37,956 bases of DNA from positions 1-37,956 of the IMG/VR virus record IMGVR_UViG_3300031757_000846; one strand, written 5' to 3'. Shown in pieces: positions 2,320-32,833 of the stretch (the first letter of the stretch is position 1; the number at the start of each line of letters is the position of its first letter). The DNA is from a virus. The notes beneath the pieces are model-generated. The model ran no database searches. It was not told where the DNA came from and saw nothing but the letters and a program-made list of their open reading frames with translations. The translations under genes were made by a program, and so were the position numbers.

Positions 2320-2690
2320 TGAGCGGTACAATGAGAATAAAAAAGAATAAAACATATCAAGTGAGTTTGTTTTTAGGTTCTATCAATGAAGAAACGAAAG
2401 AGCCTTTTTTCAAGCGTGATTTGTATTGGGAGATAGGTCTTTTTCAAGACTCTCAAAAGGACTGGACTCCAGTCAGAGTTACCCCTACAACATTCGTATG
2501 CGGAACAAAGTACATAGAAACTGGCTGGGAGATAGCGGTAATCAACTACCCCCGAGTCTCTTCGGGAACAAAACAAATAGATGATTTTATTAAAGGTCTC
2601 GCTATCCATCTACTAGAAAACTTTAAACAAAAAAGAATTACCACTACCTCTCCTAATAAAACAATAATGTACGAAAGAAATGAAAGTTAG
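2319..2690 (+). CDS. Unknown 123-residue protein
   Basis: The frame allows a GTG start at 2316, but the ATG at 2319 gives a TGATG overlap with the recombinase stop and is preferred. The sequence looks like a compact mixed or beta-rich domain, with alternating hydrophobic strands (YQVSLFLGSI, LYWEIGLF, WEIAVINYP) followed by one helix (IDDFIKGLAIHLLENF). It has a single Cys and no membrane segment. No family is recognised. It lies between the recombinase and a nuclease and overlaps the nuclease start by 11 bases, so a role in recombination is the natural guess. Confidence 0.6.
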   Translation: MSGTMRIKKNKTYQVSLFLGSINEETKEPFFKRDLYWEIGLFQDSQKDWTPVRVTPTTFVCGTKYIETGWEIAVINYPRVSSGTKQIDDFIKGLAIHLLENFKQKRITTTSPNKTIMYERNES

Positions 2691-3096
2691 AGACCTAAAT
2701 AACGAAATTCAAAACTGGAAGCTAAGCGGCTATGTTGTCAAAGCCAACGATAACAGAAGAAGATCTAAACTACATCTTGCAGCTAGAGACTTACTTATTG
2801 GGACATTTCCTACTGTACAAATTTTGGAAGAGGTCATGGCCCCTTTGACTCGAAGCGAGAAGTGTTTTTTTGATTTCTATATCAATACAGTAAAGCTGGT
2901 TGTTGAAGTGCATGGACAGCAACATTACCGTTTTAATACTCTATTTCATACTTCAGCACAAGATTTTTTGAATCAAAAACAAAGAGATGCCAAAAAAAGG
3001 GAATGGTGCGAGTATAATAATATAACGTACATTGAGCTTCCGTATAACGAGGATATAAAACAGTGGAACCACAGAATCAGCCACAGGAACGACTAG
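2680..3096 (+). CDS. VSR/PD-(D/E)XK-like small endonuclease
   Basis: This 138-residue protein carries a one-domain nuclease pattern. FFDFYI (Asp65) is followed by VVEVHGQQH (Glu76, His78, His82), then a helix rich in Q, K, R and D (QKQRDAKKREW) and a strand ITYIELPY. That layout matches the VSR, DUF559 and EDxHD group of the PD-(D/E)XK superfamily, which nicks or cuts DNA at mismatches, branches or specific sites. It follows the recombinase gene, so resolving recombination intermediates is plausible. A freestanding homing enzyme is the main alternative. His replaces the usual Lys of the ExK motif. The next gene begins inside its 3' end. Confidence 0.6.
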   Translation: MKVRDLNNEIQNWKLSGYVVKANDNRRRSKLHLAARDLLIGTFPTVQILEEVMAPLTRSEKCFFDFYINTVKLVVEVHGQQHYRFNTLFHTSAQDFLNQKQRDAKKREWCEYNNITYIELPYNEDIKQWNHRISHRND

Positions 3097-8774: not shown

Positions 8775-9316
8775 TTTCATTACCATTCTCTAAAGATATG
8801 TTAGACAGGGCTAAAGCAAAGGCCAACAACCTAGGTTCAATCAAGAACTCCATTCTTAAGGGCAGAGGAAATCTAGCAGGCTATTTAGGAGAAGAGGCCT
8901 TGGCTCCCTATATTGGGGCTGAGATAGTAAGCAACAATAGAGGACTAGATAAGTACAATCATGATCTGTTAATGAAAGATGGAAATAGGGTAGAGGTAAA
9001 GACAAAGAGAAGAACGGTAAAACCTCGTAGCAACTATGATGTTTCTGTGGCGCACACTAGCACCCACCAGAAGCCGGACATCTACGCTTTCATTAGTCTT
9101 GAATTTGAAAGGTCTAGCGATACTCACCCTAAAAGTTACTATGGGCTGAAAAACGTTTGGCTTTGCGGGTTTATGTCTGCCGAAGAGTATATGGAAAAGG
9201 CCGTAGTTTGGAAAAAGGGAAAAATTGACAAAACAAATAACTTTAAAACACATGTTGACATGTATAATTTATCAATAGACCAACTACACAAAGATATAAC
9301 AGGAATAGAAGCATGA
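8771..9316 (+). CDS. PD-(D/E)XK-like nuclease
   Basis: This 181-residue protein shows a restriction-fold active site. Glu41 lies in a helix (LAGYLGEEALAPY), Asp65 in YNHDLLM, and Glu75 with Lys77 in NRVEVKTKRR. This E...D...ExK layout is shared by many small phage nucleases and Holliday-junction or restriction-like enzymes. The C-terminal half has a strand-rich region (DIYAFISLEF, LKNVWLCGFM) typical of the fold's second half. It lies between an exonuclease and the polymerase gene, with ATGA overlaps on both sides, so a role in processing DNA during replication or in host DNA degradation is reasonable. The exact substrate is unknown. Confidence 0.65.
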   Translation: MISLPFSKDMLDRAKAKANNLGSIKNSILKGRGNLAGYLGEEALAPYIGAEIVSNNRGLDKYNHDLLMKDGNRVEVKTKRRTVKPRSNYDVSVAHTSTHQKPDIYAFISLEFERSSDTHPKSYYGLKNVWLCGFMSAEEYMEKAVVWKKGKIDKTNNFKTHVDMYNLSIDQLHKDITGIEA

Positions 9317-11175
9317 CCTATGCGCCTCTTCATGTCCACAGTGAATACTCTTTACTCTCCGGACTTTCTCAAACAAAACATATAGCTGGCCGTCTCGAAG
9401 AGATAGGCGTAGAGGCTTGCGCTCTAACGGATTACGGAACCGTTTCTGGAGCTGTTGATTTTCAGAAAATAATCTCAGGTAATTTCAAGCCCATTCTAGG
9501 TTGTGATTTTTATCTTTCTGAACAAGAAGCTACTTTGAAAGAGCCATCTAATGAAAAACTAACCAACCAAGTTGTGTTGGCTAAGGACATAGAAGGTTGG
9601 AAGAAATTGCTTTCCTTGGTTTCTGAGTCTAACAAGCCAGAACACTTCTATAGAAAGCCTCGCTTAGGTTTCGAACAGTTCCTCGAACGGGTGTCTGGGT
9701 CAGGTAAGGTGATTTCCTTTAGTGGGCAGATAGGTTCTAGGCTAGCAAACATAGTGTCTGAAAGCGGAGACTGGAAGAAAGAAGGCATTAAAGAAGTAGA
9801 AAGAATGCAAGAGGTTTTTGGCAAAGGAAACTTCTACATAGAGATACAACTAATTAACTCTCTAGTAAACCAGAAAGCAAAAGAAATAGGAGAGAAGCTC
9901 AGAGAAATATCTATAGCCACAGGAATTCCCTGTGTTGCTACTCCAGACTCACACTATTGCAAGAGAGAGGACGCTCATGACCAGCGGGTTCTTTTATGTA
10001 CAGGAGCTAGGAAAAGTGTGGGACAAATACAAGGAGGAATTAAGGAAGGGCTACATAAGGACATATCTCCTTTCTTCGAGTCTGAAAACTTCCATCTACC
10101 TAGCTATGAAGATATGAAGGAGTTCCATACAGGAGAGGAGCTAGCAAATACACTGGACATAGCAAGTCAATGCTCAGAGTATAATATATTAGGGCCTCCT
10201 AATCCTCCTGTGTTCGACTGCCCTCAGGGAATGTCCCCTAATGATTACCTTCGCTACCTGTGCAGAGAAGGCTGGACAACCAAGATGGGCCATATAGACA
10301 AAGACCATGCACAGTTCCAAGACTATGGAAGTAGAGTTAATAAAGAAATTAAAATTTTTACCGAAACCAATCTCTCTAGTTACTTTTTAATCGTTAGGGA
10401 TATTATTCAGTATGCGGATACGAGAGGATACCTAACTGGGCCGGGACGTGGTAGTGCGGCAGGATGTATAGTGTCCTATTTGATGGATATAACTAAGATT
10501 GACCCCATCCCATATGATTTAATTTTCGAAAGATTTTACAATGCTGGCCGTAACGCTGGAGAACATGTGTCTATGCCCGATATCGATATTGACGTACCTA
10601 AACACTCAAGGAACGATATTATTGAATATGTTAAAAATAAGTACGGCAAAGACAATGTAGCTCAGATTATTACTTTTCAAACACTGAAAGGAAGAGCTGC
10701 TCTTAAGAGAGTCATGGCTGCCAGAGGTAACATTGGTTTCGATGAGCAAAACACAATCACGTCTCATATTCTTGACGAAGCTAAAATTGCAGATGAGCTG
10801 CAAGACATGAAGGATGAGCTTGGAACATCTTCTGTGATAACTTGGGCATTAGAAAACAAAACTGACAAGCTAAAAGACTGGTGTTATGTTGATGACAACG
10901 GAAATCTGCAAGGAAGGTTCGCTAAGATTTTTGAACAGGCTATACGATTAGAAGATACAAAGATTATCCAATCAAAGCATGCCGCTGGTGTTGTCATCTC
11001 TCCTCAACCAATATATGATGTTTGCCCTATGGTTTTAGATAGAGAAGAAAAGAATCTATTAGCTGGGTTTGAAGGGCCGTCGTGTGAAGACGTAGGACTT
11101 TTGAAGCTAGATGTTCTTGGTATTAAAATGTTAGATAAAGTTATGGAGATTCCCAATATTTTAATGGGAGTATAA
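9313..11175 (+). CDS. dnaE: DNA polymerase III alpha subunit, N-terminal half (PHP and palm)
   Basis: This 620-residue protein matches the first half of bacterial DnaE. It has a PHP domain from HVHSEYSLL (His7, His9) to PDSHYCKREDAHDQ, then GPGRGSAAGCIVSYL, MPDIDID (Asp423 and Asp425, equivalent to E. coli Asp401 and Asp403), SKHAAGVVIS, and KLDVLG with the third catalytic Asp at 600. It stops at TAA, 20 residues later, with no intein motif. The rest of the enzyme is encoded at 11885-13519. One PHP ligand position (usual TDHG) reads TDYG, so PHP nuclease activity is doubtful. AGGAA and an ATGA overlap support the start. Activity would require assembly with the C-terminal half. Confidence 0.92.
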   Translation: MTYAPLHVHSEYSLLSGLSQTKHIAGRLEEIGVEACALTDYGTVSGAVDFQKIISGNFKPILGCDFYLSEQEATLKEPSNEKLTNQVVLAKDIEGWKKLLSLVSESNKPEHFYRKPRLGFEQFLERVSGSGKVISFSGQIGSRLANIVSESGDWKKEGIKEVERMQEVFGKGNFYIEIQLINSLVNQKAKEIGEKLREISIATGIPCVATPDSHYCKREDAHDQRVLLCTGARKSVGQIQGGIKEGLHKDISPFFESENFHLPSYEDMKEFHTGEELANTLDIASQCSEYNILGPPNPPVFDCPQGMSPNDYLRYLCREGWTTKMGHIDKDHAQFQDYGSRVNKEIKIFTETNLSSYFLIVRDIIQYADTRGYLTGPGRGSAAGCIVSYLMDITKIDPIPYDLIFERFYNAGRNAGEHVSMPDIDIDVPKHSRNDIIEYVKNKYGKDNVAQIITFQTLKGRAALKRVMAARGNIGFDEQNTITSHILDEAKIADELQDMKDELGTSSVITWALENKTDKLKDWCYVDDNGNLQGRFAKIFEQAIRLEDTKIIQSKHAAGVVISPQPIYDVCPMVLDREEKNLLAGFEGPSCEDVGLLKLDVLGIKMLDKVMEIPNILMGV

Positions 11176-11217
11176 TTAAGTAAGTAAAACTAGGAAACAA
11201 TAAGGAACATAAAAGAT

Positions 11218-11898
11218 ATGAATAATAGATGGATAATGGTATTCGACTGGGAGACTGATAGTCCAAACCCAAATACATGCAACCCTGTTGAGCTTGCTGC
11301 CGTACCAGTAAACCCCCGAACTTTAGAAATCAAAACAGACCAAGCATTTAGGGCGACTATTCGTCCAGATGATATTGATTCAGAAGAATATTTCACCAAA
11401 GAAAGACAGGGAACTATAGCTTGGCACGCAAAGCAACGCGGAGTAAAAACAGAAGAAATTATATCAGACTGGAAAAAAGGTCAAAGTGAAAAGGTTGTTT
11501 GGAAAAACTTTTGTAACTACTGTGCTAAATACGAAGTAGACAAAAAGCCGGGACAGTGGTATACTGAACCTATTCCTTCAGGATATAACATCATTGGCTT
11601 TGATCTTGTTATTGCCAATAGAATGGTTGAAAAGTACAAAACAAAATCGCCTTTCTCAAAGGTAACTAAGATTGACATGATGGACATACTGTTTATGTGG
11701 TTCGAAAATTTAGATGAGCCAAGCAGTATGAAGCTTGATGCCTTCCGAGACTTCTTCGGAATGGAGGCAACACAAGCACACGAAGCTTTATCAGATACAA
11801 TCGACGAGGCGGAATTATTGGTGAAGTTTATGAAGTTCCATCGAAGACAATCGACAATTGGAAAGTTTAAGGGAGCATTCGCTCATGAAAAAGTTTAG
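11218..11898 (+). CDS. dnaQ: DEDDh 3'-5' proofreading exonuclease (epsilon-like) between the polymerase halves
   Basis: This 226-residue protein has the three exonuclease motifs. ExoI is VFDWETD (Asp10, Glu12), ExoII is IIGFDLVIANRM (Asp129), and ExoIII is HEALSD (His188, Asp193). That is the DEDDh class of DnaQ, which removes misincorporated 3' nucleotides. Residues 50-120 hold an insertion compared with compact DnaQ cores. It has its own AAGGAA (11202-11207) and a 41-base gap after the polymerase N-half. Its last 14 bases overlap the start of the polymerase C-half, so exonuclease and C-half are translationally coupled. Its place inside a split dnaE makes a proofreading role the simplest reading. 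Confidence 0.88.
   Translation: MNNRWIMVFDWETDSPNPNTCNPVELAAVPVNPRTLEIKTDQAFRATIRPDDIDSEEYFTKERQGTIAWHAKQRGVKTEEIISDWKKGQSEKVVWKNFCNYCAKYEVDKKPGQWYTEPIPSGYNIIGFDLVIANRMVEKYKTKSPFSKVTKIDMMDILFMWFENLDEPSSMKLDAFRDFFGMEATQAHEALSDTIDEAELLVKFMKFHRRQSTIGKFKGAFAHEKV
11869..11874 (+). promoter_or_regulatory. Shine-Dalgarno deciding the start of the polymerase C-half
   Basis: AAGGGA lies 10 bases before the ATG at 11885, inside the exonuclease gene. It supports separate translation of the C-terminal polymerase half from that ATG rather than from TTG at 11858. Confidence 0.65.
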
Positions 11899-13519
11899 TT
11901 GCGGGTGTGAATTCCATGAAACAGAAAAGGGAATAATATTTGACCCTGACATCACAAAAATATCTCTAGACTGCTCGGCAACTTGGGACTTAATATGTAG
12001 CGGAAACACAAAGGGTGTTTTTCAATTAGAGTCTCAGCTTGGCCGTTCGTTGTCAGAACAAGCCAAGCCCAACAACATGGAAGAACTCTCCGACCTTATT
12101 GCGATCATGAGACCGGGATGTTTGGAGGCTATGGTTAAAGGAAAATCCTTGACCATGCACTATATAGATAGAAAACACTATAGAGATGCTGTTGAGTACC
12201 TTCATGATTCCCTAAAGCCAATATTAGAAAGTACCTATGGTATCCTTGTATACCAAGAGCAGGCTATTCTTATCGCTACAGAGATTGCGGGATTCGATCT
12301 TCAGGAGGCTGATATCTTAAGAAAAGCCATCGGCAAGAAAAAGGTAGATGTCATGGCAAAGGTTAAGAAGTCTTTTCTTGAAAAGGCAGAAGCCAGAGGA
12401 ACTGTAAGCAAGGAACAGGCTGAAGAAATCTTTAGCTGGATTGAAAAGTCTCAAAGATATTCATTCAATAAATCCCACAGTGTAAGTTATGCCTATAACT
12501 CATACCTCACCGCCTACTGCAAGGCTCATTTCCCTCATGAGTTTTTCACTGCTTATCTTAAAAATGCTGTCGGTAAGCCAGATACATTTTGGGAAGTAAA
12601 CGAGCTAGTTAATAATGCCAAGATTATGGGTATCCAAGTAATGCCTCCTAACATTAAAAATATGAATGAGGAATTTAGACTGATTGACAGGAGCCCCACT
12701 TATGGAATTACCAATATAAAGAATGTCGGCTCTTCTGTCTTTAGAAAAATGCTTGCTCATATTGAAGCTAACGAGATAGACATCAACCATTGTGACTGGG
12801 ATTGCTTTCTTTTGTTGATCGCTCCCTTCGTTAATAAAAGAGCGTTTGAGTCTCTAATTTTAGCAGGAGCCTTTGATGGTTTTAAAATCTCTCGCTCTAA
12901 GATGCAGCACCATTTTAATATAGTCAAGGAATTTACTAAAAGAGAGATGGCTTGGCTCAAAGAGTTCAAGGAAGAGAACCCAGACGCAACAGCAGAAGAC
13001 GCCATTGGAAGGATGGTAGAGGAGTCAGAAACAAGAACAAAGAACAGGCCCATCTTTCGTAAGGAAAGAATTCCTATTATAGCAGACTTACTAAGCACCT
13101 ATGACAATCCGGGATATGACCTATATGACTCTCCATCATGGGTGTCTAAGGTAGAGGAAGAACTGTTAGGGATCTCGTTGACCTGCAACAAGGTGGACGA
13201 ATATGATACCAGCAAGTCTAACTGCTCTTGCAAAGAGTTTGTTGATGGCTTCAATTCAAAAGGAGGAATCGTTCTTGCTGTTAAAGTAGATTCTGTAAGA
13301 GAGTGGACTATTAAAAAAGGAAGATCTAAGGGAATGAAAATGGGTTTTGTTACTGTTAGTGATACTAGCTGCTCCTTAGATAACGTAACCGCCTTCTCAG
13401 ACGAGTGGGAAAAGTACAAACAGTTCCTCCATGAGGGCAATACGGTGCTTATGAGAGGTATGAAGGACAATAATCGGGGAAGTTTCCTGATAAAAAAGGT
13501 AGAACAGCTAACAAGTTAG
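11885..13519 (+). CDS. dnaE: DNA polymerase III alpha subunit, C-terminal half (fingers to OB fold)
   Basis: This 544-residue protein resumes DnaE where the first half stops. KGVFQLES lies at residues 43-50, followed by IMRPG, LKPILESTYGILVYQEQ, DILRKAIGKKK, the fingers motif YSFNKSHSVSYAY, a helix-hairpin-helix region (LILAGAFDGF) and an OB-like end around residues 455-540. Together the halves give 1164 residues, matching E. coli alpha (1160). The ATG at 11885 after AAGGGA is preferred to a TTG at 11858 because the extra residues align with nothing. The first 40 residues include a CGC pair and replace a variable palm loop. No catalytic Asp is here, so it cannot polymerise alone. Confidence 0.92.
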   Translation: MKKFSCGCEFHETEKGIIFDPDITKISLDCSATWDLICSGNTKGVFQLESQLGRSLSEQAKPNNMEELSDLIAIMRPGCLEAMVKGKSLTMHYIDRKHYRDAVEYLHDSLKPILESTYGILVYQEQAILIATEIAGFDLQEADILRKAIGKKKVDVMAKVKKSFLEKAEARGTVSKEQAEEIFSWIEKSQRYSFNKSHSVSYAYNSYLTAYCKAHFPHEFFTAYLKNAVGKPDTFWEVNELVNNAKIMGIQVMPPNIKNMNEEFRLIDRSPTYGITNIKNVGSSVFRKMLAHIEANEIDINHCDWDCFLLLIAPFVNKRAFESLILAGAFDGFKISRSKMQHHFNIVKEFTKREMAWLKEFKEENPDATAEDAIGRMVEESETRTKNRPIFRKERIPIIADLLSTYDNPGYDLYDSPSWVSKVEEELLGISLTCNKVDEYDTSKSNCSCKEFVDGFNSKGGIVLAVKVDSVREWTIKKGRSKGMKMGFVTVSDTSCSLDNVTAFSDEWEKYKQFLHEGNTVLMRGMKDNNRGSFLIKKVEQLTS

Positions 13520-13548: not shown

Positions 13549-13998
13549 ATGGATGATTTAATAGAGAAGCACATGGGGCTCGTCGTTTCTGTTGTGAACT
13601 CTTTTAAGCCTAGGAACTCTACCGAGAGAGAAGACTACGTGCAGGCTGGAAGGATAGGGCTTTGGAAGGCTCTTAAAAAATACGACCCGACAAAAGGAAC
13701 TGTACTTTCTACATACGCATGGAACCCTATACGATGGGAGATAATCAAGGAGATTAAATCTGCAAAAAAGGGAAGATATGTTTCCTCTACATTTAACAAC
13801 CCTCCCTTATATCATACAAAAGATGAGATATGGGAAGTCTTGCCTAGTTTTCTTTCCGATGAAGAGGTGGGCTTAGTGGAGCTAAGGAAAATGGGATATA
13901 AGTTAGCCGAGATGGCTGAGATTACAGGAAGAACCAGTTCGTATGTCAAGAGAATTTTTTACAAAGCTGTTAAAAAGATAAGGGAAAAGAATGAGTAA
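13549..13998 (+). CDS. Small sigma-70-like transcription factor
   Basis: This 149-residue protein has a region 2-like segment, REDYVQAGRIGLWKALKKYDPTKGT, continuing into STYAWNPIRWEIIKEIK (core binding and -10 recognition). A C-terminal region 4-like helix-turn-helix runs about residues 102-145 (LSDEEVGLVELRKMGYKLAEMAE, then SSYVKRIFYKAVKKI). Regions 1 and 3 are absent, as in small phage sigma factors such as T4 gp55. It probably redirects host RNA polymerase to phage promoters, perhaps those of the opposite-strand tail genes. No matching promoter motif was found in the window. AAGGAA at 13538-13543 precedes the ATG, and the stop overlaps the next gene (ATGAGTAA). Confidence 0.75.
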   Translation: MDDLIEKHMGLVVSVVNSFKPRNSTEREDYVQAGRIGLWKALKKYDPTKGTVLSTYAWNPIRWEIIKEIKSAKKGRYVSSTFNNPPLYHTKDEIWEVLPSFLSDEEVGLVELRKMGYKLAEMAEITGRTSSYVKRIFYKAVKKIREKNE

Positions 13999-20740: not shown

Positions 20741-21153
20741 TAGGTATTTTACTGGGTCATAGCTTTGACGACAAGTCTATAGAAGATATTTATAATAATA
20801 ACGATAAAAATTATTGTATCTTTAGTACAGGAGCAGTCTCTCCTAAGTACCCTGTCCCTTATCTGCAAAAGCTACGGGTCTATGACTTTAAAGGAACTGT
20901 AGTGGCGACTGACATCCCAACAGCCATACTGGCAGCAAGACTAAGTTTACCTACCAAAAAGTATTTTTACATCCGCTCTTTAGAATGGGTTGGCTTTCAA
21001 CCCCTAGTATACGAAGAACTAAAAAGCATATACCTGAACGAGGAGGTGGAGTTAATAGTTTCAAATAAAAGAGACTTTAATTTAATCAAAAACCTATTTA
21101 AAGAACCGAAATTTATTGTAAAAGATTGGAATTTTAGTGAGATATTAAAATGA
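20737..21153 (+). CDS. Short GT-B N-domain-like protein
   Basis: The 138-residue protein is Rossmann-like. Residues 1-60 hold two strand-helix units (MIGILLGHSFDD, GTVVATDIPTAILAARLSL). Then comes KKYFYIRSLEWVGFQPLVYEELKSIYLNEEVELIVSN, similar to the acceptor-domain end of GT-B glycosyltransferases. It is about half the size of a complete GT-B enzyme and has no donor domain. It may complement the preceding protein as a split GT-B, or act as a binding subunit. GAGGA and the ATGA overlap support the start. It closes the sugar cluster. Confidence 0.45.
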   Translation: MIGILLGHSFDDKSIEDIYNNNDKNYCIFSTGAVSPKYPVPYLQKLRVYDFKGTVVATDIPTAILAARLSLPTKKYFYIRSLEWVGFQPLVYEELKSIYLNEEVELIVSNKRDFNLIKNLFKEPKFIVKDWNFSEILK

Positions 21154-21950
21154 ATAAAAAAAATAAAACCTATTGGGACTTACCAGATAAAGAAAAAGAA
21201 AAATTTCTATCAACAGCCTACAACAAAAAGAAAATGAGCTGGATTAGTATAGCAAAGGAACTTTCTACATATCCAAATAAGGTTCGCAGAGAGGCTAGGA
21301 GACTTGGAATAGAGTCTAGAGATAAAAGCTCAGCACAAAGAGTTGCATTGAAGCAAGGTAGGTCTGAACATCCAACAGAAGGTACTGAAAGAAGTGAGGA
21401 GACTAGGATAAAAATTAGTGATAGTCAAGGTAAAATTTGGGACTCACTCACCGAAAGAGAAAAGGCAAAAAGGTCTTTGACGGCTAAGGAGGTCTGGGAC
21501 AGAAAAACCGAGGCTGAGAAGCAGGATATTATCAGTAAAGGAAGCGAAGCTATTCGTAGAGCGTCCAAGGAGGGATCTAAATTAGAAAAATTTATACTTA
21601 GCGAACTCACCAAGAGAAATTACAAGGTACAATTCCATAAGGAGCATTGGCTTAAAAACCAAAATCTTGAGACTGACCTATTCGTTGAGGACTTAAGAAC
21701 AGTAATAGAAGTAGACGGCCCCTCTCACTTTGAGCCTGTGTGGGGAGAGGAAAACCTAAAGAAGAATCAGCGGTCAGACCTAGAGAAAACAGGGCTAGTA
21801 TTAGCACAGGGTTTAGTTCTCATTAGAATTAAACAAACAAAGAGGATTTCAAATAGATATTTAAGAAGTGTTCTCGAAAAGCTTCTTGAAGTTATTGGTA
21901 ATATTGAGGAAAAGTTTCCCGAGGAAAATAAGAGGTATATAGAAATATGA
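21150..21950 (+). CDS. VSR/EDxHD-like endonuclease, probable freestanding homing type
   Basis: The 266-residue protein has three parts. A helix-turn-helix lies at about residues 28-54 (MSWISIAKELSTYPNKVRREARRLGI). A long charged linker of short helices follows, resembling homing-enzyme DNA-contact modules. The nuclease domain runs from residue about 145: GSKLEKFILSEL, ETDLF, TVIEVDGPSHFEP, then LVLIRIKQ. That is the VSR/EDxHD group, known as freestanding homing endonucleases in phages and also as phage repair nucleases. It sits between the sugar cluster and the recombination genes, a spot compatible with insertion. The start overlaps the previous stop as ATGA without a clear Shine-Dalgarno. 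Confidence 0.65.
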   Translation: MNKKNKTYWDLPDKEKEKFLSTAYNKKKMSWISIAKELSTYPNKVRREARRLGIESRDKSSAQRVALKQGRSEHPTEGTERSEETRIKISDSQGKIWDSLTEREKAKRSLTAKEVWDRKTEAEKQDIISKGSEAIRRASKEGSKLEKFILSELTKRNYKVQFHKEHWLKNQNLETDLFVEDLRTVIEVDGPSHFEPVWGEENLKKNQRSDLEKTGLVLAQGLVLIRIKQTKRISNRYLRSVLEKLLEVIGNIEEKFPEENKRYIEI

Positions 21951-24526: not shown

Positions 24527-24534
24527 CTTCTCCT
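24527..24534 (-). promoter_or_regulatory. Shine-Dalgarno of the Cys-rich protein gene, overlapping the hub-fibre stop
   Basis: The minus strand reads AGGAGAAG six bases before the ATG at 24520 and overlaps the upstream TAG stop. This supports the chosen start and couples the two genes. Confidence 0.7.
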
Positions 24535-27500
24535 AACTAACAGTGTCTATAAATAATCCCTCTGGAGTAAATCGCATCTTCCTTTCCACGACGCTAAGGC
24601 CGCTTCCTACACATACGATATCTGTAACATAAGGAACCTCAGTTGGAGCTCCGCTACACGCTGTTTTATCAAGAGTAATAGTGACATTATTGGAAGAGCC
24701 AGCCAAGCCAAGACCGTCGCCGACTTGAACAATTTCTATTCTATTAGACCCTTGCTTAACACCATCACAATCTAGGAATTTAAGCTTACTGTTTAGCTCG
24801 TAATCACACCCATCCTCATAGACGGTCCGTAGTTCTAAGCCAGAACCAACCGCTAGCGAGTCAAATATGTTTCCACCTATTGTAGGCTGCGGAGCTGTGA
24901 TTGTCGCGGTTGTTCCGCCCATAGCAAGCTTGAGACCATTGCCGATAACTATTTTTTCAAATGCCTTATGATCTGCGACTTGCTCGTTGCCGTCCGGTTT
25001 GCACTCAGGCATTCCACCCTTTATGGTATGGGTCGAATCAAGGGTAAAGTCACAGTATTCACCCATCACAGGAGGACGAAGTTGTAGCCCTGTTCCTAGT
25101 GTGATCTGGTCAAATACATTGCCGTCTATTTCGGGTTGAGGGGCCCATATCTCGAAGTCTCCAGCACCATTGTCATCAAGCTTAAGACCATCCCCAATTA
25201 AGAATCTATCAAATAACTTATAATCCCCTACACTATAATTTGCGCCGTCCGGTTTGCAGCCTGTCATTCCACCCTTTATGGCATGGGTCGAATCAAGGGT
25301 ATAATCGCAATACTCATCTATCAAAGGAGGACGAAGTTGTAGTCCTGTTCCTAGTGTGATGTCGTCAAATATCTTGCCGTCTATTTTAGATTGTGGAACA
25401 TTTATTGTATATTCACAACCCGGAGTATTCTCTACTAATTCAATACCTTCTTTAAAATGAAGCTGTGTAAACGACTTGTATTCTGGAACTTTCGGGATAT
25501 GAGACGGATCAAACTTGCAGCCAGTCATACCTCCCTTTATAGACATCAAGCTGTTTAGAGTTACCTCACATGGGTTATCCTCATTAGGATCTACTACAAT
25601 ACCCAGTCCAGTTCCAAAGTTAATATGTGTAAAGTGAGTGCTACTTCCTATGCCGGGTTGACCACATTTAGTCTCATCAGTATAGCTAATATTATTAGCA
25701 GCGTTAATTGTATAGTTGCAGAGATCGGATGGTCCGCCGGACATTACCGAAAGTCCGCTACCAACTGTTAGCCTGTAAAACGGCTTGGGGGAATCCATGA
25801 ATGTGTCTACACAATTACCAGCTGTTCCCTGTGCTATCTCCAAGTAGGAATTCAATCTGGGAGAACACGAGCCGGGAAGATGATCCTCTAGCCATAGACC
25901 GGAGCCTATCACAACATTTTTGGGATTGCCTGACGTAAAGCCATTTGGGGCTCCACACTTCTTGGTGTAAGTCATTGGGAGTTGAGTTTCCCAGTTTATC
26001 ATATAGGTGCATCCGTCAGAAACTTCCTGTAAGCTGAGTCCGGTACCTAGCTGCAGGCTCTCAAACTCCTTTACATCGGTAACGCCGGGCCTGTGGCAGT
26101 CTGGTGATGCATGATTGTGACTAGCCAAATCTTCTATAGTCTGGTAGCTATTTAATAGATAGCTATGGCACTCTTGATTTGGTCTAGCTGCATCTGGATG
26201 TAGTCCGGTTAAGCGAAGCCCTTTTCCAAACACAAGATCTTCATATTTAGTAGATTTAGGATATTTAGGAACACCTCTATAAGTGTATGGTTCATCTCCA
26301 CAGCTGCCGGAGTCAGATATTCTGTGGCTGCTACTAACGAGATAGTTAGAGCTAGAACCGCTTTGCTCTATGTCTATGCCGGTGCTAAATGTTAACTCGG
26401 TAAAGTTTACCTTGGGATGTCCATAGTAATAGCCGGGCGATATGGTCGCATCGCATGGCATATATTCCTTTGATACCATAGTGCCACTTCCACCTGACCC
26501 ACAAGCATAAATCTCATACTTACAGTCTCCAAGATCTTTAACTCCAATGCCGGAGGTAAAGCTTAGATGACTAAAAAATTCCTTGTCTATGTCCGATTCG
26601 GTCTCGTTACAGGTAGCACCAGTAGAGCTAATATAATGATCCGCGTCAATCCTAGCAGAGCCATCGACATGGCTGTGAATTTTCAGCCCACTACCATACT
26701 CAATGCAAGTCGTACCTGTGCACGCTGTTACTGATGGGGTATAACCACAATATCCAGAGTCACTAACCTTAGTTCCGCTTCCTCCTCCGCTAGCCTCAAT
26801 GTAAACAAAGTTGCAATCCTGAGTGGGGCCAGTTTGATCGCTCCGTCCTCCGGTATAAGCGGTTATTCCGGATCCAAAAATTAAAGTGCTCCAGTCCGAA
26901 ATACAGTTACTCTCGAGTTTTTTGATAACAGACATGCTGGTAGAACCAGCGTCTCCAGTGCTAGCAACATCATAAACCGGAACTCTTAAAGACAAAAATG
27001 TTCCTGATCCAGAAGGAAAACTGTCGCAGTCGCTATTTCCGCCGCTTACTGATATTTGAGACGCTTGCAGCCCGCTGCCAACCACTATGGTACTGCTTGT
27101 CCAACAGCCTCTAGAGGAAGGGGCTTGGCAACCTTCTCCGGCACTCTCATAGCAAACGCCGGTATTGTAAAATGTGGTTTCTCCGCCGGAGCCACCACCT
27201 ACGAGAGGGTAATATGTGCATGCCATTGAATCATAAACTGCAAAGAAGCCTTCTCCACTTGGAATAGTATCACCCCAACTTGGGTTCTTTACTTTAATCG
27301 TACCAGAGGAATTGGATATAACGGCCCCGTTTGCATCATAAACAGGATTGGCTGCAGTACCCATATCAAGGACTTGAACATCAGCACGACTTTCTCCTGC
27401 CGCAATGGATCCACCTGTAGTAGAAGCTTGAACAATCTTATACTGTATAGGCTGAGTCCATACTCCTCTTGCTCTGTCAAACCTTAAGTCTATAGGGCCG

Positions 27501-30500
27501 ACAGGCCAAGTATGAGGTTTCCTTAAATAGTGAGTTAAAAACCTATCCTTAAGACCGGCAGCTTCAAACACACCACCAGAAGCTGCTGATTCTGTATCTG
27601 CTTCATTTGGTATAGGCTTACCATCTATATCATATCCCCAGCCATGCATAAGCATAGGGCCTTTGCTAGCTATCATTCTTAGGTGCTCTGGAAAAGAATT
27701 CCCCTCATCCACGTATGTATTCATATCCAGAGGTCCGACAGGCAATGCGCCATGCCCTAAAATCCCTATGTCCGCGTAGTTTCCTGCTAGATCGGAGTCC
27801 TCATCGTGTTTAGCCTTGGAAGGATATGAGTATGGATCAAGATAATCAATGTCAATGATACAAGGTTTATATGGGTTCGGTGAAGGACCAGTCCCATCTC
27901 CATTAAAGGGAGGATTTACATGTCTTGTTTGATTGGGTCTTTCTTCCCAGCATAAATCTGGCTTATGAGCCCTGCCTTTAGCAGTCTTTGTGTATTGAGG
28001 AAGTCTTGATGATGGAGAAACTCCATTCCAAACAGGTCTGTAAAAAGCATCGTTACTAGAAAGACCTTGATTGACCCAATCAGAAGAGTTTCCCATTCTT
28101 AAAGTTCTTGGAGACGTGTCTGTTATGTTACTTGCTACCGTTGTGTTTCCGTCTGTCTTATTACCCTCTCCTATTTGACCCACTTTTATCGTATTAGAAT
28201 TAACGGAGTCTGATTTGCTACTTCTTTTAATCTGAGAATTTTTAAGAGATCTTGCGGTTCTGTCTTGAGTGGTCTTTAGGGCTCTTGTGAGTTTGTTTCT
28301 TTCTCTTTGTGCTTTTCTAAACGACTGTCTCTGTTTGCCCAGAGTTTTTAGTCGATTAGCATTATACTTAGCAAACCTACCAAAAGTAGGAGAGAAGGTA
28401 CTCAAGGTGTAATTAGAGGTGAATCCATTATCTCCAATATTTATTTGAATGTTTGTAATGCTTGGTCCAAAAGAGCCTTCCCAAGGCCCTATGTTAATCC
28501 TATTGAATTGGAAAGTCTGAGATAAAACTTTAAAGTCTACGGATTGCATCGTAAGCAGTCCCATCACGCTCTGCGAAGAATTAAGCTCTGATCCCAATCT
28601 CTTTGTCGGATGTCCCGGAAAATTAACAGAACCCCTCTCTCCTTCTTGCATGTATGTAACGGCCGACTTGGCATGCTCATCCATCGCATTTATCCCACCG
28701 GCCATAAGGCTTGTATACCCATCGTATTCCCAAGGAACTAAACCGTCGTCTGCAACAAAGTGTATTTGTCCCGGAGGTCCCTTGTACGCTTTTGGCCCAT
28801 ACCTAATGGTATTACTCTTCATTGGGACGGCTGCCTCGCTAGGGGTTCTTCTGCGAAGTGCCATCCCCAGTCCTCCGTCTGTCCCTCTTGAATTGTCTGG
28901 ATTGAAGCTAAGTCCATATTTTAAGTTAGTAATGTCGGATCCGACAAGACCAGACTCGAACGCCAGTTCTATAAGCCCCCCAAAGCTCTGATCTACATCG
29001 GAAAGATCTTTTTCAAGACCGCTCATTGTTACTGGATTGTCTAAGTTAACAATAGCAGTAGCATAACTATAGTACTCTAAAGGCTTCTCTTCTACTGTTG
29101 AGCTGACATATAAAGAATTTCCACCAGCATCTCCGGGATTATAAACTAAGGAGTCTCCTTCTGTTCTCATGGAACCTGATTCATTATTATAGAATCTTGC
29201 AAAAGGAAGAATCTTGTTTACATCATCCGTGAAATGACTGCACGCGTCACCCGGTATACCTTCTGTTGCGTCAACAGGTAATCCAAGGATATTAGTCACT
29301 CCCTTAGTAGGCCAACCTCCATCATTCGTAGGGTTGTCCGAGTAGAGAACTTGACCGGAATCAGGATCTGTGCAATAACACACATAAGGAAGTTGAACCA
29401 AAAACTTTTTACCGTAATAGGTATCTGCCCAGTTCTCAATAAATTCATGTATCTTTCGCATGTCTGCGTTTTTAGCATTTTGCGGGTCTTGGTCTGGCTG
29501 AAAAGCTAGGTTGAATCCTAATAAATTTTGAAACTTGGCCCCAATTTCTGCTTGTGGTTTACCAACGTGACCAAAGTGTATCTGGGGTCCGACGATACCA
29601 AGAGTGTCTTTCAGGTATTTACCAAACTCTGTTCCTGTTCCCGTATTATATACCAACGCATAGTTCATCCATGAATCAAAACTAGAAAGAGCCATTCTCA
29701 TCTCTCTCTCATGGATGGGGATATAGTTGGCTCCTCTGGCTCCGAGGCCCGGTATGCTTTGACCTGTAATAACATTCGTAAGAACTAGATTAAGTGGTCT
29801 AATGTCGAGCCAGACTTTCCATTCCCCTAGCTCTCTCCCTGTTAATGTAGTATTTGTTGCATATGCAAGATTGTGTGCAGCGTCCCATCCCCAAAACTGA
29901 ACGATTTCTCCGGCAGACTTAGTAGGCGTTCTGTCTTGTTGATATATAGTTTGGACGTATCCACCATAAACAAAAGCTTGGCTAGGCTCATTTCTTAGTT
30001 CTCGTCCTATGTTTTTAGAGGTCACATTCTCTACTGTATTAACAAAATCCTCTATCTGTCCCAGTGTAGGCTGTACCGCTCTTTGTACTGTTCTTACTTT
30101 GATAACCTTTTGTTTGGTTGGGGTAATAAGAAGTTCAATATAATAATCTGAACCGGAATCGTTGCACACTTGAGTAATAAGATCTAGTAAAGAAATACTA
30201 GGACCCGGAATACGGTAAAAGGTTGGAGTAAATGGTATCTCAGATAAATCAATATAGTACTGAGAAACCTGTCTATGTCCGCCTGCTGCTGCGAGAGCTG
30301 CATCGTTTCTATCCTCGCTGCTTCCTTCTATAACTCCATAAAACTCTCCGTTGGCTGCTGCGTCTGTGCTGGTTGGGCCCCTATACGAAGCGTACCCATA
30401 TGGTGAAAAGCTAGCATGACTACTTCCACTTAAAAGCCTTTGTATAGCATATCTCAGACCACCGGGTCCGGAGGGCTTATTCCACGGGGTTCCTTCATTA

Positions 30501-31069
30501 TTATTTCCAGCCCCACAAAAACCGCCAGCTGGAGAACCAAAGGTTGCCCCATTTACTAGAGTAGGAGGACAAGCATATCCTTTGGATTCTAACCATCCAT
30601 AAGCATTAATAAGGTTGTAGACATCTCCAACGGCGCCAGCATAGTCGCTGACAATAACCTCTAGGTTCTGAAGTATAAGACGAGGGTCTACTATCTGGAC
30701 AGTATACACCGGATAGCCACTGGAGCTTCTGTCCTCTGTCCAAGACTGAATGATTCCAGCAAATTCAAATATATCGCTGCTGTTTCCAAGTTCTCCACCT
30801 ATCCTAAAATAGACTGGAACGCCTATAGTGGGTTTCGTAAATCCGGGATCGGCGGCTCTCGTTTCAACTCTAGAGCCGGGTCTTGGATAATAAACCTTAG
30901 CGGGCTTAGTCGCTGGTACTTCGCAGAAGTCATCTACAAGAACAACTGTAAGTGAGGACTGTTGCTCATTCCACCCTACAGAACAACTGACAGATTGTAC
31001 AGAAGAACCTAAAAATATGGTCTGTTGTCTTGGGCCATATATATCGTCTGGTAAGCAGGCTTTTGCCAT
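24533..31069 (-). CDS. Giant tail hub-like protein fused to a repeat-rich fibre
   Basis: This 2178-residue protein seems to join three parts. Residues 1 to about 450 look like a tail-hub or baseplate domain: DIFEFAGIIQSWTEDRSSSG, YPVYTVQIVDPRLILQNLEV, then SLLDLITQVCNDSG. Residues about 895-955 are a strongly basic linker (SFRKAQRERNKLTRALKTTQ). From about 1325 to the end come some 18 units centred on GxGL, most with a Cys and a following CxYxI strand. The likely role is host contact at the tail tip. AAGGA precedes the ATG. It follows a distal-tail-like gene, as hub genes usually do. Assignment rests on order and pattern. Confidence 0.6.
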   Translation of the reverse strand: MAKACLPDDIYGPRQQTIFLGSSVQSVSCSVGWNEQQSSLTVVLVDDFCEVPATKPAKVYYPRPGSRVETRAADPGFTKPTIGVPVYFRIGGELGNSSDIFEFAGIIQSWTEDRSSSGYPVYTVQIVDPRLILQNLEVIVSDYAGAVGDVYNLINAYGWLESKGYACPPTLVNGATFGSPAGGFCGAGNNNEGTPWNKPSGPGGLRYAIQRLLSGSSHASFSPYGYASYRGPTSTDAAANGEFYGVIEGSSEDRNDAALAAAGGHRQVSQYYIDLSEIPFTPTFYRIPGPSISLLDLITQVCNDSGSDYYIELLITPTKQKVIKVRTVQRAVQPTLGQIEDFVNTVENVTSKNIGRELRNEPSQAFVYGGYVQTIYQQDRTPTKSAGEIVQFWGWDAAHNLAYATNTTLTGRELGEWKVWLDIRPLNLVLTNVITGQSIPGLGARGANYIPIHEREMRMALSSFDSWMNYALVYNTGTGTEFGKYLKDTLGIVGPQIHFGHVGKPQAEIGAKFQNLLGFNLAFQPDQDPQNAKNADMRKIHEFIENWADTYYGKKFLVQLPYVCYCTDPDSGQVLYSDNPTNDGGWPTKGVTNILGLPVDATEGIPGDACSHFTDDVNKILPFARFYNNESGSMRTEGDSLVYNPGDAGGNSLYVSSTVEEKPLEYYSYATAIVNLDNPVTMSGLEKDLSDVDQSFGGLIELAFESGLVGSDITNLKYGLSFNPDNSRGTDGGLGMALRRRTPSEAAVPMKSNTIRYGPKAYKGPPGQIHFVADDGLVPWEYDGYTSLMAGGINAMDEHAKSAVTYMQEGERGSVNFPGHPTKRLGSELNSSQSVMGLLTMQSVDFKVLSQTFQFNRINIGPWEGSFGPSITNIQINIGDNGFTSNYTLSTFSPTFGRFAKYNANRLKTLGKQRQSFRKAQRERNKLTRALKTTQDRTARSLKNSQIKRSSKSDSVNSNTIKVGQIGEGNKTDGNTTVASNITDTSPRTLRMGNSSDWVNQGLSSNDAFYRPVWNGVSPSSRLPQYTKTAKGRAHKPDLCWEERPNQTRHVNPPFNGDGTGPSPNPYKPCIIDIDYLDPYSYPSKAKHDEDSDLAGNYADIGILGHGALPVGPLDMNTYVDEGNSFPEHLRMIASKGPMLMHGWGYDIDGKPIPNEADTESAASGGVFEAAGLKDRFLTHYLRKPHTWPVGPIDLRFDRARGVWTQPIQYKIVQASTTGGSIAAGESRADVQVLDMGTAANPVYDANGAVISNSSGTIKVKNPSWGDTIPSGEGFFAVYDSMACTYYPLVGGGSGGETTFYNTGVCYESAGEGCQAPSSRGCWTSSTIVVGSGLQASQISVSGGNSDCDSFPSGSGTFLSLRVPVYDVASTGDAGSTSMSVIKKLESNCISDWSTLIFGSGITAYTGGRSDQTGPTQDCNFVYIEASGGGSGTKVSDSGYCGYTPSVTACTGTTCIEYGSGLKIHSHVDGSARIDADHYISSTGATCNETESDIDKEFFSHLSFTSGIGVKDLGDCKYEIYACGSGGSGTMVSKEYMPCDATISPGYYYGHPKVNFTELTFSTGIDIEQSGSSSNYLVSSSHRISDSGSCGDEPYTYRGVPKYPKSTKYEDLVFGKGLRLTGLHPDAARPNQECHSYLLNSYQTIEDLASHNHASPDCHRPGVTDVKEFESLQLGTGLSLQEVSDGCTYMINWETQLPMTYTKKCGAPNGFTSGNPKNVVIGSGLWLEDHLPGSCSPRLNSYLEIAQGTAGNCVDTFMDSPKPFYRLTVGSGLSVMSGGPSDLCNYTINAANNISYTDETKCGQPGIGSSTHFTHINFGTGLGIVVDPNEDNPCEVTLNSLMSIKGGMTGCKFDPSHIPKVPEYKSFTQLHFKEGIELVENTPGCEYTINVPQSKIDGKIFDDITLGTGLQLRPPLIDEYCDYTLDSTHAIKGGMTGCKPDGANYSVGDYKLFDRFLIGDGLKLDDNGAGDFEIWAPQPEIDGNVFDQITLGTGLQLRPPVMGEYCDFTLDSTHTIKGGMPECKPDGNEQVADHKAFEKIVIGNGLKLAMGGTTATITAPQPTIGGNIFDSLAVGSGLELRTVYEDGCDYELNSKLKFLDCDGVKQGSNRIEIVQVGDGLGLAGSSNNVTITLDKTACSGAPTEVPYVTDIVCVGSGLSVVERKMRFTPEGLFIDTVS
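24560..27095 (-). repeat. About 18 GxGL fibre repeats in the hub-fibre protein
   Basis: Units of about 33-65 residues have the form F-x2-hydrophobic-x-hydrophobic-G-x-G-L/I, followed by a short loop, Cys-x-Tyr-x-Ile/Leu-Asn and a connecting segment. Examples are VVGSGLQ, LQLGTGLSL, ITLGTGLQL and VCVGSGLSV. Similar GTGL beta repeats are known in phage tail fibres. Long and short units alternate near the C-terminus. Confidence 0.75.
24989..25395 (-). repeat. 255-base near-identical duplication in the fibre array
   Basis: The segment 24989-25140 recurs at 25244-25395 with a constant offset of 255 bases (85 codons). The shared sequence encodes TLGTGLQLRPP and TIKGGM-type segments. A more diverged third copy begins near 24861. 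High DNA identity shows recent duplication or recombination in the fibre. Confidence 0.8.
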
Positions 31070-31084
31070 GTGTTGTTTATCCTT

Positions 31085-32797
31085 TTAACAATCTGTGTGT
31101 ATCCAAGAAGCTGTTCTTCCTAATCTTCCTGTTCGTGGGTCCCAATTTATGTTGTTTGCAGTCAGGAAATAAGTCCCATACGTATCTGCAATTCCTACCT
31201 CAACAGAATCTATTAATTCCTGATAAAATTCAGTGGGCGCTCCTACCCAAAAATCTCCTGTACAAGTGTATCCAGTTTGTGGAACTACAACTGCCTCTAT
31301 GCTACATTCTGTAGTTGATGCTGTCTTGGTTCCTATGTCTTGCAGTATAGGCCCATTCGCTCTGCCTAATATAACTAGGCTAGAGTGAACATCTGTAGCT
31401 AATCCTCTGGAGATACTTATGGTTTCTGAGAGGGCTTCACTATAACAATTTACAGGTCTATTACTGTAAGATAAGTTATATCCTATTGTCCCCTCATTAG
31501 TATTATATGCTATACTCTTGCTAATTGGTTCGGGAGATAATTGTAATAATGTAGTAGAAGGAGAGCCTAATCCACTATAAGCAGTAGCGGCCCTGTCAAA
31601 TAACAAGGGACTACCTCTCTCTTTAGTTGGATAGCTATCAGAACCACCGCCCGTATTGGCATATAAAGCGTCATCTAGGTAAGACTGTGCCGCAAATATG
31701 GCAGTAGACATTTTATTGCCAGCGGGTAATGCTAAGCCAAAAGGACCCGGAGATCCACTGCCAGACTCAGTTGGGGTTCCAACAAAAGACTCTAAGCCTC
31801 TTAGTTCTCCTTGAAGATTAACGGTGATAATGGCTTCGTCTAGAGAAGAGGAAACATCAAGATTAAAAGTGTCAATAACATTTCCAGAAGGAATATTCTT
31901 TCCTTTATAGTCACCGCTACTAGGTTTCATTACATAGGTGTCTGTCCAGCTATAGCTACCGCCTAAAAAATTAATCCCGTGAGATCGCTCTGTCAAAATA
32001 GGATCGAATCCAGAGGCGCCACCTGCCATGCCAACAAAGTCTAAGAAACTTCCAACAACATTATCAAAATCAGCCGAAGTCGGATTTGTGCTATAGGCTT
32101 TTGTCGGCGCCCCTTCTATTGTCTGAGCACTTGTCCCAACCCCCACAGTGACCCACAAAGGAGTGCATCCTGTTCCAAATTGGTTTGGTTTAGAAGCTAT
32201 GTCTACTGTGTAATCTCTATCGTAGCTTTGGAGTTCAATAAAACCACCACTATAACCACCACTACCAACAATAAGATCGTAGGATTCTTGTTCTGGATAT
32301 GGATTGGAAAGAGAAGCTCCTCCTGTTCCTGTAGATAAATGAGTACGAGAGAATATCTCAATGGAGTACTCCACTTTTTTTACCCACTGATCTTCACTAC
32401 TGAACTCTACACTGTTAACTCTTGTCCCACTAGTGTATACTACATAACCAGAGCAAAGAGGGCCATCTCCTAGAAACTTAACCGAGAATAGACTTCCGTC
32501 ATTATTAAGGGCATAAAGTAAATCGTCTTTTGCCCTGAAGCTAGAAACAGCATTTCCATAGCCGTCAAACTGGTGCCCTAGTGCGATAGGAAGGTTTGAC
32601 CTTGAAGCTGCTTCTGCCGGTGTTAATCCTGTTCCTTGTACCGATTCAGGAAGTAAGCTGCCATTAATGCTAACTCTATAGCCACCACCAAATACAGTTC
32701 CATCATTCGCCTTATATTGTTCCCTAGAGACGGTCATTAACGGCGCAGGTTTAAACTGGTAATCGCCGTAGAATACCTCTACTCCTGTTACTGACAT
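31085..32797 (-). CDS. Distal-tail-like structural protein
   Basis: The 570-residue protein is beta-rich and low in Lys, with many Gly, Ser and Thr, as in virion proteins. The N-terminus VTGVEVFYGDYQFKPAPLMTVS and DGTVFGGGYRVSINGSLLP resembles the strand-turn opening of tail-tube-linked distal proteins. The middle holds YDLIVGSGGYSGGFIEL and a Cys-bearing segment, and the end is TASWIHTDC. GGAGA precedes the ATG. It lies between a tape-measure-like gene and the hub-fibre gene, the usual place of the distal tail protein. It is longer than simple Dit proteins (about 250 residues), so an added domain is likely. Confidence 0.5.
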   Translation of the reverse strand: MSVTGVEVFYGDYQFKPAPLMTVSREQYKANDGTVFGGGYRVSINGSLLPESVQGTGLTPAEAASRSNLPIALGHQFDGYGNAVSSFRAKDDLLYALNNDGSLFSVKFLGDGPLCSGYVVYTSGTRVNSVEFSSEDQWVKKVEYSIEIFSRTHLSTGTGGASLSNPYPEQESYDLIVGSGGYSGGFIELQSYDRDYTVDIASKPNQFGTGCTPLWVTVGVGTSAQTIEGAPTKAYSTNPTSADFDNVVGSFLDFVGMAGGASGFDPILTERSHGINFLGGSYSWTDTYVMKPSSGDYKGKNIPSGNVIDTFNLDVSSSLDEAIITVNLQGELRGLESFVGTPTESGSGSPGPFGLALPAGNKMSTAIFAAQSYLDDALYANTGGGSDSYPTKERGSPLLFDRAATAYSGLGSPSTTLLQLSPEPISKSIAYNTNEGTIGYNLSYSNRPVNCYSEALSETISISRGLATDVHSSLVILGRANGPILQDIGTKTASTTECSIEAVVVPQTGYTCTGDFWVGAPTEFYQELIDSVEVGIADTYGTYFLTANNINWDPRTGRLGRTASWIHTDC

Positions 32798-32833
32798 TTT
32801 AAAATCTCCAATTAAATTTACTAACTAAGGCCG

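Follow-up and report, generated by a model that had tools for sequence, protein, structure and literature searches.

Known two-gene polymerases and polymerase-exonuclease pairs

Phage polymerases divided between two genes are, as such, already known. The locus analysed here lies in IMG/VR virus record IMGVR_UViG_3300031757_000846, a linear fragment of 37,956 bases whose whole length is called the window below. It encodes the alpha subunit of DNA polymerase III (Pol III) as an N chain and a C chain, with the gene for a DEDDh exonuclease (exo) between them.

A direct functional precedent is gp43A/43B of Aeromonas phage 25, whose split chains co-purify and have DNA polymerase activity (2010 work reviewed in PMC2988022). 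Like the window module, it divides a replicative phage polymerase between two chains encoded side by side, and by analogy it counts in favour of a two-chain enzyme here. Unlike the window module, it belongs to family B, its gap holds a seg homing endonuclease or untranslated sequence, and it is known from a few phages and is not a fixed trait of a large clade. Family B polymerases include a proofreading domain.

PMC7302621 reports two Pol III alpha-related genes in cluster EF phages. In Krampusvirus (Microbacterium cluster EF; TinyMiny and Neptune) and in Rhodococcus phage Weasels2, as in the window, a C-family polymerase is encoded by two adjacent genes, but the break separates PHP from palm (about E. 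coli 268-277), the two genes have no exonuclease between them, and these phages are remote in the tree described below. The Pol III alpha of the marine phages of Cbastvirus (Cellulophaga phage phiST, L186, and Tenacibaculum phage Larrie, L184) is likewise carried by two adjacent genes; here the break immediately precedes the catalytic PD-D-D motif, at about E. coli 397, and the genes abut with nothing between them.

Cyanobacterial split DnaE (Ssp and Npu) also occupies two genes, but the break site is another one, the genes are far apart and the halves are ligated by a split intein. The cyanobacterial break is in the finger region, at about residue 774. The pairing of a C-family polymerase with a DEDDh exonuclease is shared with bacterial alpha-epsilon (DnaE plus DnaQ) and with PolC. 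Epsilon is encoded elsewhere and binds through its C-terminal tail, and the PolC exonuclease sits inside the PHP domain of one chain; in contrast to both, the window has its exonuclease as a gene of its own, placed where the polymerase is broken.

'Fractured genes' that combine split inteins with free-standing endonucleases (Dassa et al. 2009, cited in PMC3653736) resemble the window module in that a phage gene is divided and an unrelated nuclease gene lies in the gap, and they may represent its ancestor. Their halves carry intein fragments, whereas the window module has none and its gap nuclease is a DEDDh exonuclease. In the literature searched, which is thin in subscription papers, no description was found of the three-gene arrangement with its site, its invariant gap exonuclease and its clade-wide fixation, and these three properties appear to be new.

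A Pol III alpha divided near the palm/fingers boundary

Three successive plus-strand genes of the window encode the N chain, the exonuclease and the C chain, with the following features.

9313-11175, plus strand: N chain of the split Pol III alpha, 620 amino acids (aa), PHP and palm/thumb (Pfam PHP and DNA_pol3_alpha; phrog_405 positions 42-607)
11176-11217, plus strand: short gap between N chain and exonuclease, with the Shine-Dalgarno-like AAGGAA (11202-11207) of the exonuclease (sequence reading)
11218-11898, plus strand: DEDDh 3'-5' exonuclease, 226 aa, probable proofreading subunit (RNase_T, phrog_192, conserved residues, AlphaFold model)
11870-11875, plus strand: AGGGAG, Shine-Dalgarno-like site for the C chain, within the exonuclease gene (sequence reading)
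11885 (ATG)-13519 (stop), plus strand: C chain of the split Pol III alpha, 544 aa, with CxC hairpin, fingers, HhH and OB fold (Pfam; phrog_405 positions 617-1075; AlphaFold model)
11900-11908, plus strand: CGC motif (C6, C8) at the start of the C chain (co-occurrence with C30)

An earlier note, made from the letters of this DNA alone, had described a Pol III alpha split into 620 and 544 aa (1164 aa in sum) around an exonuclease gene that has its own ribosome site and overlaps the C half. Pfam matches and coordinates bear this out: 42 nucleotides (nt) separate the N-chain stop from the exonuclease gene, the exonuclease and C-chain genes overlap by 14 nt, and AGGGAG stands 9 nt upstream of the C-chain ATG.

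The N chain matches Pfam PHP (E 1e-28) and the DNA_pol3_alpha palm (E 4e-69), and the C chain matches DNA_pol3_finger (E 2e-45), HHH_6 and, weakly, OB. Taken together, the two chains present PHP, palm, finger, HhH and OB in the order of a DnaE-type Pol III alpha. As the earlier note had also stated, all three catalytic Asp are in the first piece (D423 and D425 in MPDIDID, D600 in KLDVLG), where they are invariant across 34 diverse relatives, and the fingers and OB-like end are in the second. The C chain modelled alone with AlphaFold2 from the family alignment has a well-formed predicted fold (mean predicted local distance difference test, pLDDT, 92). Although its OB match is weak in Pfam, the whole chain aligns structurally with Pol III alpha, Foldseek matching the model along its length with template modelling (TM) scores of 0.66-0.67 to the Taq and M. 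tuberculosis proteins. A shorter N chain (about 520-550 aa), without roughly 85-110 PHP residues, is seen in a sub-clade of relatives (L335, L336, L341-L358).

The N chain stops 20 residues past D600, and KGVFQLES occupies C-chain residues 43-50, 42 residues after the chain start. On Taq alpha, the alignment of the N profile ends at residue 629 and that of the C profile begins at 642. In Salmonella DnaE, the break maps to 558-561 in the numbering of the annotated protein, whose start is 16 residues late, and so corresponds to about 574-577 of E. coli alpha. In the E. coli structure, the palm extends to about 560 and the fingers begin at about 561, and by this division the break lies close to the palm/fingers boundary.

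The arrangement is fixed in a large clade of uncultured phages

Protein and profile scans of IMG/VR gathered hundreds of relatives, which form a large group of uncultured phages, mostly marine and freshwater. All 185 distinct exonuclease sequences with complete loci from six viral scans (144/144 after the first five) have N, exo and C in that order, as separate reading frames, a count that excludes assembly error, local frameshift or chance. Identity to the window drops to about 37-50% among relatives with this order, which indicates that the arrangement is old.

A maximum-likelihood tree was built by a quick search from joined N and C chains, together with unsplit alphas of phages and bacteria and further split alphas of phages; its outgroup branches are long. 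In it, all 51 split-with-exo rows lie on one side of a single branch with support 100. By this tree the split genes have a single origin. No continuous dnaE was found within the clade; the continuous relatives retrieved all fall outside it, at about 30% identity. Among 50,697 phage records there is no isolated phage with the three-gene module, the best C-chain matches being about 30% identical. Two phages with weak exonuclease matches were set aside: Virus Rctr197k has no annotated alpha gene nearby, and the alpha of Tenacibaculum phage Larrie is split differently. The matches in cellular genomes are three contigs of metagenome-assembled genomes (L181, L182 and L183; Lokiarchaeota and Flavobacteriales), most likely viral contigs binned with these genomes, and they are no evidence of host.

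All three genes are under strong purifying selection. When the window is compared with L003 or L004, synonymous sites prove to be saturated (proportion of synonymous differences, pS, about 0.8) and the nonsynonymous proportion (pN) is 0.07-0.12; for window pairs in general, pN is about 0.02-0.17 against a pS of about 0.4-0.84. For the close pair L003/L004, the ratio of nonsynonymous to synonymous substitution rates (dN/dS) is 0.007-0.045 in all three genes.

The exonuclease is the one constant gene in the gap

The exonuclease is a separate open reading frame, and not an insertion in the PHP domain of one chain as in PolC. It matches Pfam RNase_T/DEDDh (E 7e-7), its best PHROG is phrog_192 ('DNA polymerase exonuclease subunit'), and D10, E12, D129, H188 and D193 are invariant in 37 relatives, so that the DEDDh active site is intact. 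Its AlphaFold model (pLDDT 90) has an RNase H-like fold closest to the DnaQ domain, RNase T and ExoI, with the PolC exonuclease among the matches. Apart from PHP, a Pfam search found no exonuclease domain in the N or C chain. Measured from the exonuclease stop, the C-chain start has a median position of -4 nt, and 92% of starts fall within -30 to +40 nt.

Relatives carry 0-1.5 kilobases (kb) and extra genes between the N chain and the exonuclease. The genes collected in the gap of L042, L055, L060, L067, L074, L078, L094, L099, L100 and L227 encode QueF-like, cytidylyltransferase, SET, glyoxalase, ThyX, uracil-DNA glycosylase (UDG), MazG, GroES-like and macro-domain proteins, and in L227 a tRNA lies between the exonuclease and the C chain. 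Among the many genes that enter the gap, the exonuclease alone is always there (185/185), and it is because of this invariable presence that we assign it a probable role in proofreading.

A probable two-chain replicase with coupled proofreading

We consider it very probable that the module specifies a two-chain replicase, assembled without covalent linkage and provided with translationally coupled proofreading. N, exo and C would form the core of the phage replicase, in which Pol III alpha is never one chain but always two polypeptides, each folding as its own set of domains. The two chains would associate non-covalently into one active site, the N chain contributing the catalytic Asp residues and the C chain the nucleotide and DNA contacts. 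The exonuclease would be made between the halves, its translation coupled to that of the C chain, and would act as a dedicated proofreading subunit in the role that epsilon/DnaQ plays for bacterial alpha.

Since the split is old, stable and under selection, the halves very probably reassemble into a working polymerase. The earlier note's polymerase of two chains thus stands as the best reading of the sequences, although precedents for split phage polymerases went unmentioned there. Its coupled proofreading holds at the gene level (an intact DEDDh enzyme, always in the gap, with overlapping or near-overlapping starts), and from this we infer the physical complex, its polymerase activity and its proofreading.

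Several points weigh against this reading. The exonuclease fold would also suit RNase T-like or ExoI-like roles, and with DnaQ, RNase T, ExoI and PolC all among its matches, the fold alone is no proof of proofreading. The window exonuclease and that of L014 (5001-5678) diverged recently, with a synonymous rate (dS) of 0.65, whereas the N and C chains are saturated, which suggests that the exonuclease gene was swapped at least once independently of the polymerase halves. Such an exchange would fit a modular partner and would speak against a very tight three-way fit. Distance matrices compared by the mirror-tree approach give 0.88 for N-C, 0.88 for C with the exonuclease and 0.86 for N with the exonuclease, and hence no specific N-C pairing signal. 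Finally, completeness is not certified for the long related records discussed below, and a second polymerase may conceivably lie outside the sequence that they contain.

An unlikely alternative, though the most probable of the rivals, is that the two chains do form the polymerase, while the exonuclease serves recombination or repair as a nuclease of the ExoI, RNase T or phage DexA type, lodged in a permissive gap. The RNase T and ExoI matches, the separate exchange of the gene and the entry of many unrelated genes (ThyX, UDG, MazG, GroES, QueF) into the same gap would all be expected in that case. However, the exonuclease is the sole constant gap gene, is mostly coupled or nearly coupled to the C chain and has a polymerase exonuclease subunit as its best PHROG, and the two chains themselves have no exonuclease domain besides PHP.

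Rather less probable is an obligate heterotrimer, in which the exonuclease would serve as a structural third subunit at the palm/fingers break and the conserved CxC...C would form a metal-stabilised joint. The first C-chain residues are a predicted beta-hairpin bearing the CxC motif, and among 144 distinct C chains, counted as sequences and not as independent events, CxC and C30 are both present in 128, both absent in 10 and mixed in 6. If the heterotrimer were true, proofreading would be built into the seam between the polymerase halves.

We regard it as very improbable that the two chains are a remnant, in decay or without a role in replication, and that another polymerase, of phage or host, is at work. 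Phages can use host polymerases, and the window is a fragment of 37,956 bases. However, each of 20 long related records (67-233 kb) contains a single palm and a single finger domain of the C family, and searches whose controls were positive found neither a family A nor a family B polymerase in them. The strong purifying selection, the invariant catalytic residues and the replication genes next to the module (DnaB helicase, primase, UvsX) are also contrary to a remnant. In the same 20 records, no bacterial-type beta clamp was found (controls positive), and a search for T4-type clamps gave no match there or in its controls.

The least probable explanation is that split-intein trans-splicing, or an intron that removes the exonuclease, joins the halves into a continuous alpha after transcription or translation: split inteins exist in the same gene family (L211 and L239) and cyanobacterial DnaE is healed in this way, but the chain ends of the window carry no intein halves, Rfam at the gathering threshold revealed no intron in the window, contrary to what a gene split by a group I intron would show, the 42-nt gap and the overlap of exo with the C chain leave no room for an intein or intron, relatives maintain additional, unrelated genes between the halves, and the C chain is furnished with a start codon and a ribosome site of its own.

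Mobile elements and a possible origin

No intein/Hint match was found in the N chain, exonuclease or C chain of the window, in agreement with the earlier note, which saw no intein at either edge. An intein would have been detected, because the same library picked up the real split inteins of L211 and L239. In these two relatives (L211, 550-3610; L239, 472-3602), the N-chain gene is interrupted after GPGRG, upstream of the N/C break, by an intein N-half, a separate endonuclease-like gene and an intein C-half ending in ...VHN, after which the chain continues with SAAG. By its sequence, this is a 'fractured gene' inside an already split polymerase. In L275 (521-3592), an insertion of about 1 kb that includes a LAGLIDADG endonuclease gene breaks the N-chain gene just before the catalytic PDIDID motif, and no intron was found at this interruption at the Rfam gathering threshold.

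Two HNH/homing-endonuclease-like genes were identified by PHROG matches at 2680-3096 and 21150-21950 of the window, which suggests that this phage lineage has been entered by mobile nucleases. Because of these genes and the interruptions in L211, L239 and L275, we speculate that the split may have begun when a mobile element, either a homing endonuclease or a split intein, invaded the gene long ago, and that the intein and nuclease have since been lost. After the loss of the mobile element, the gap would have become a place for the insertion of other genes.

Other genes of the window

The neighbours of the split polymerase form a replication module that encodes UvsX, DnaB helicase, primase, a deoxynucleoside monophosphate (dNMP) kinase and a PD-(D/E)XK nuclease. 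Directly 3' of the C chain, a short gene at 13549-13998 contains sigma-70 region 2 and may encode a phage sigma factor. The minus strand at 24533-37876 carries very large genes, of 2178, 570 and 1680 aa, none of which matches a PHROG.

Implications

A replicative polymerase would be expected among the most constrained of single chains, and here its catalytic core has been cut once and kept so across a large and diverse clade. The split alpha would offer a natural test of palm-fingers communication in C-family polymerases, and the break an evolution-tested split point for engineered polymerases, while the module as a whole may be seen as a minimal replicase with its own proofreader. Gene callers and hidden Markov model (HMM) surveys that demand a full-length DnaE would score these phages as carrying fragments.

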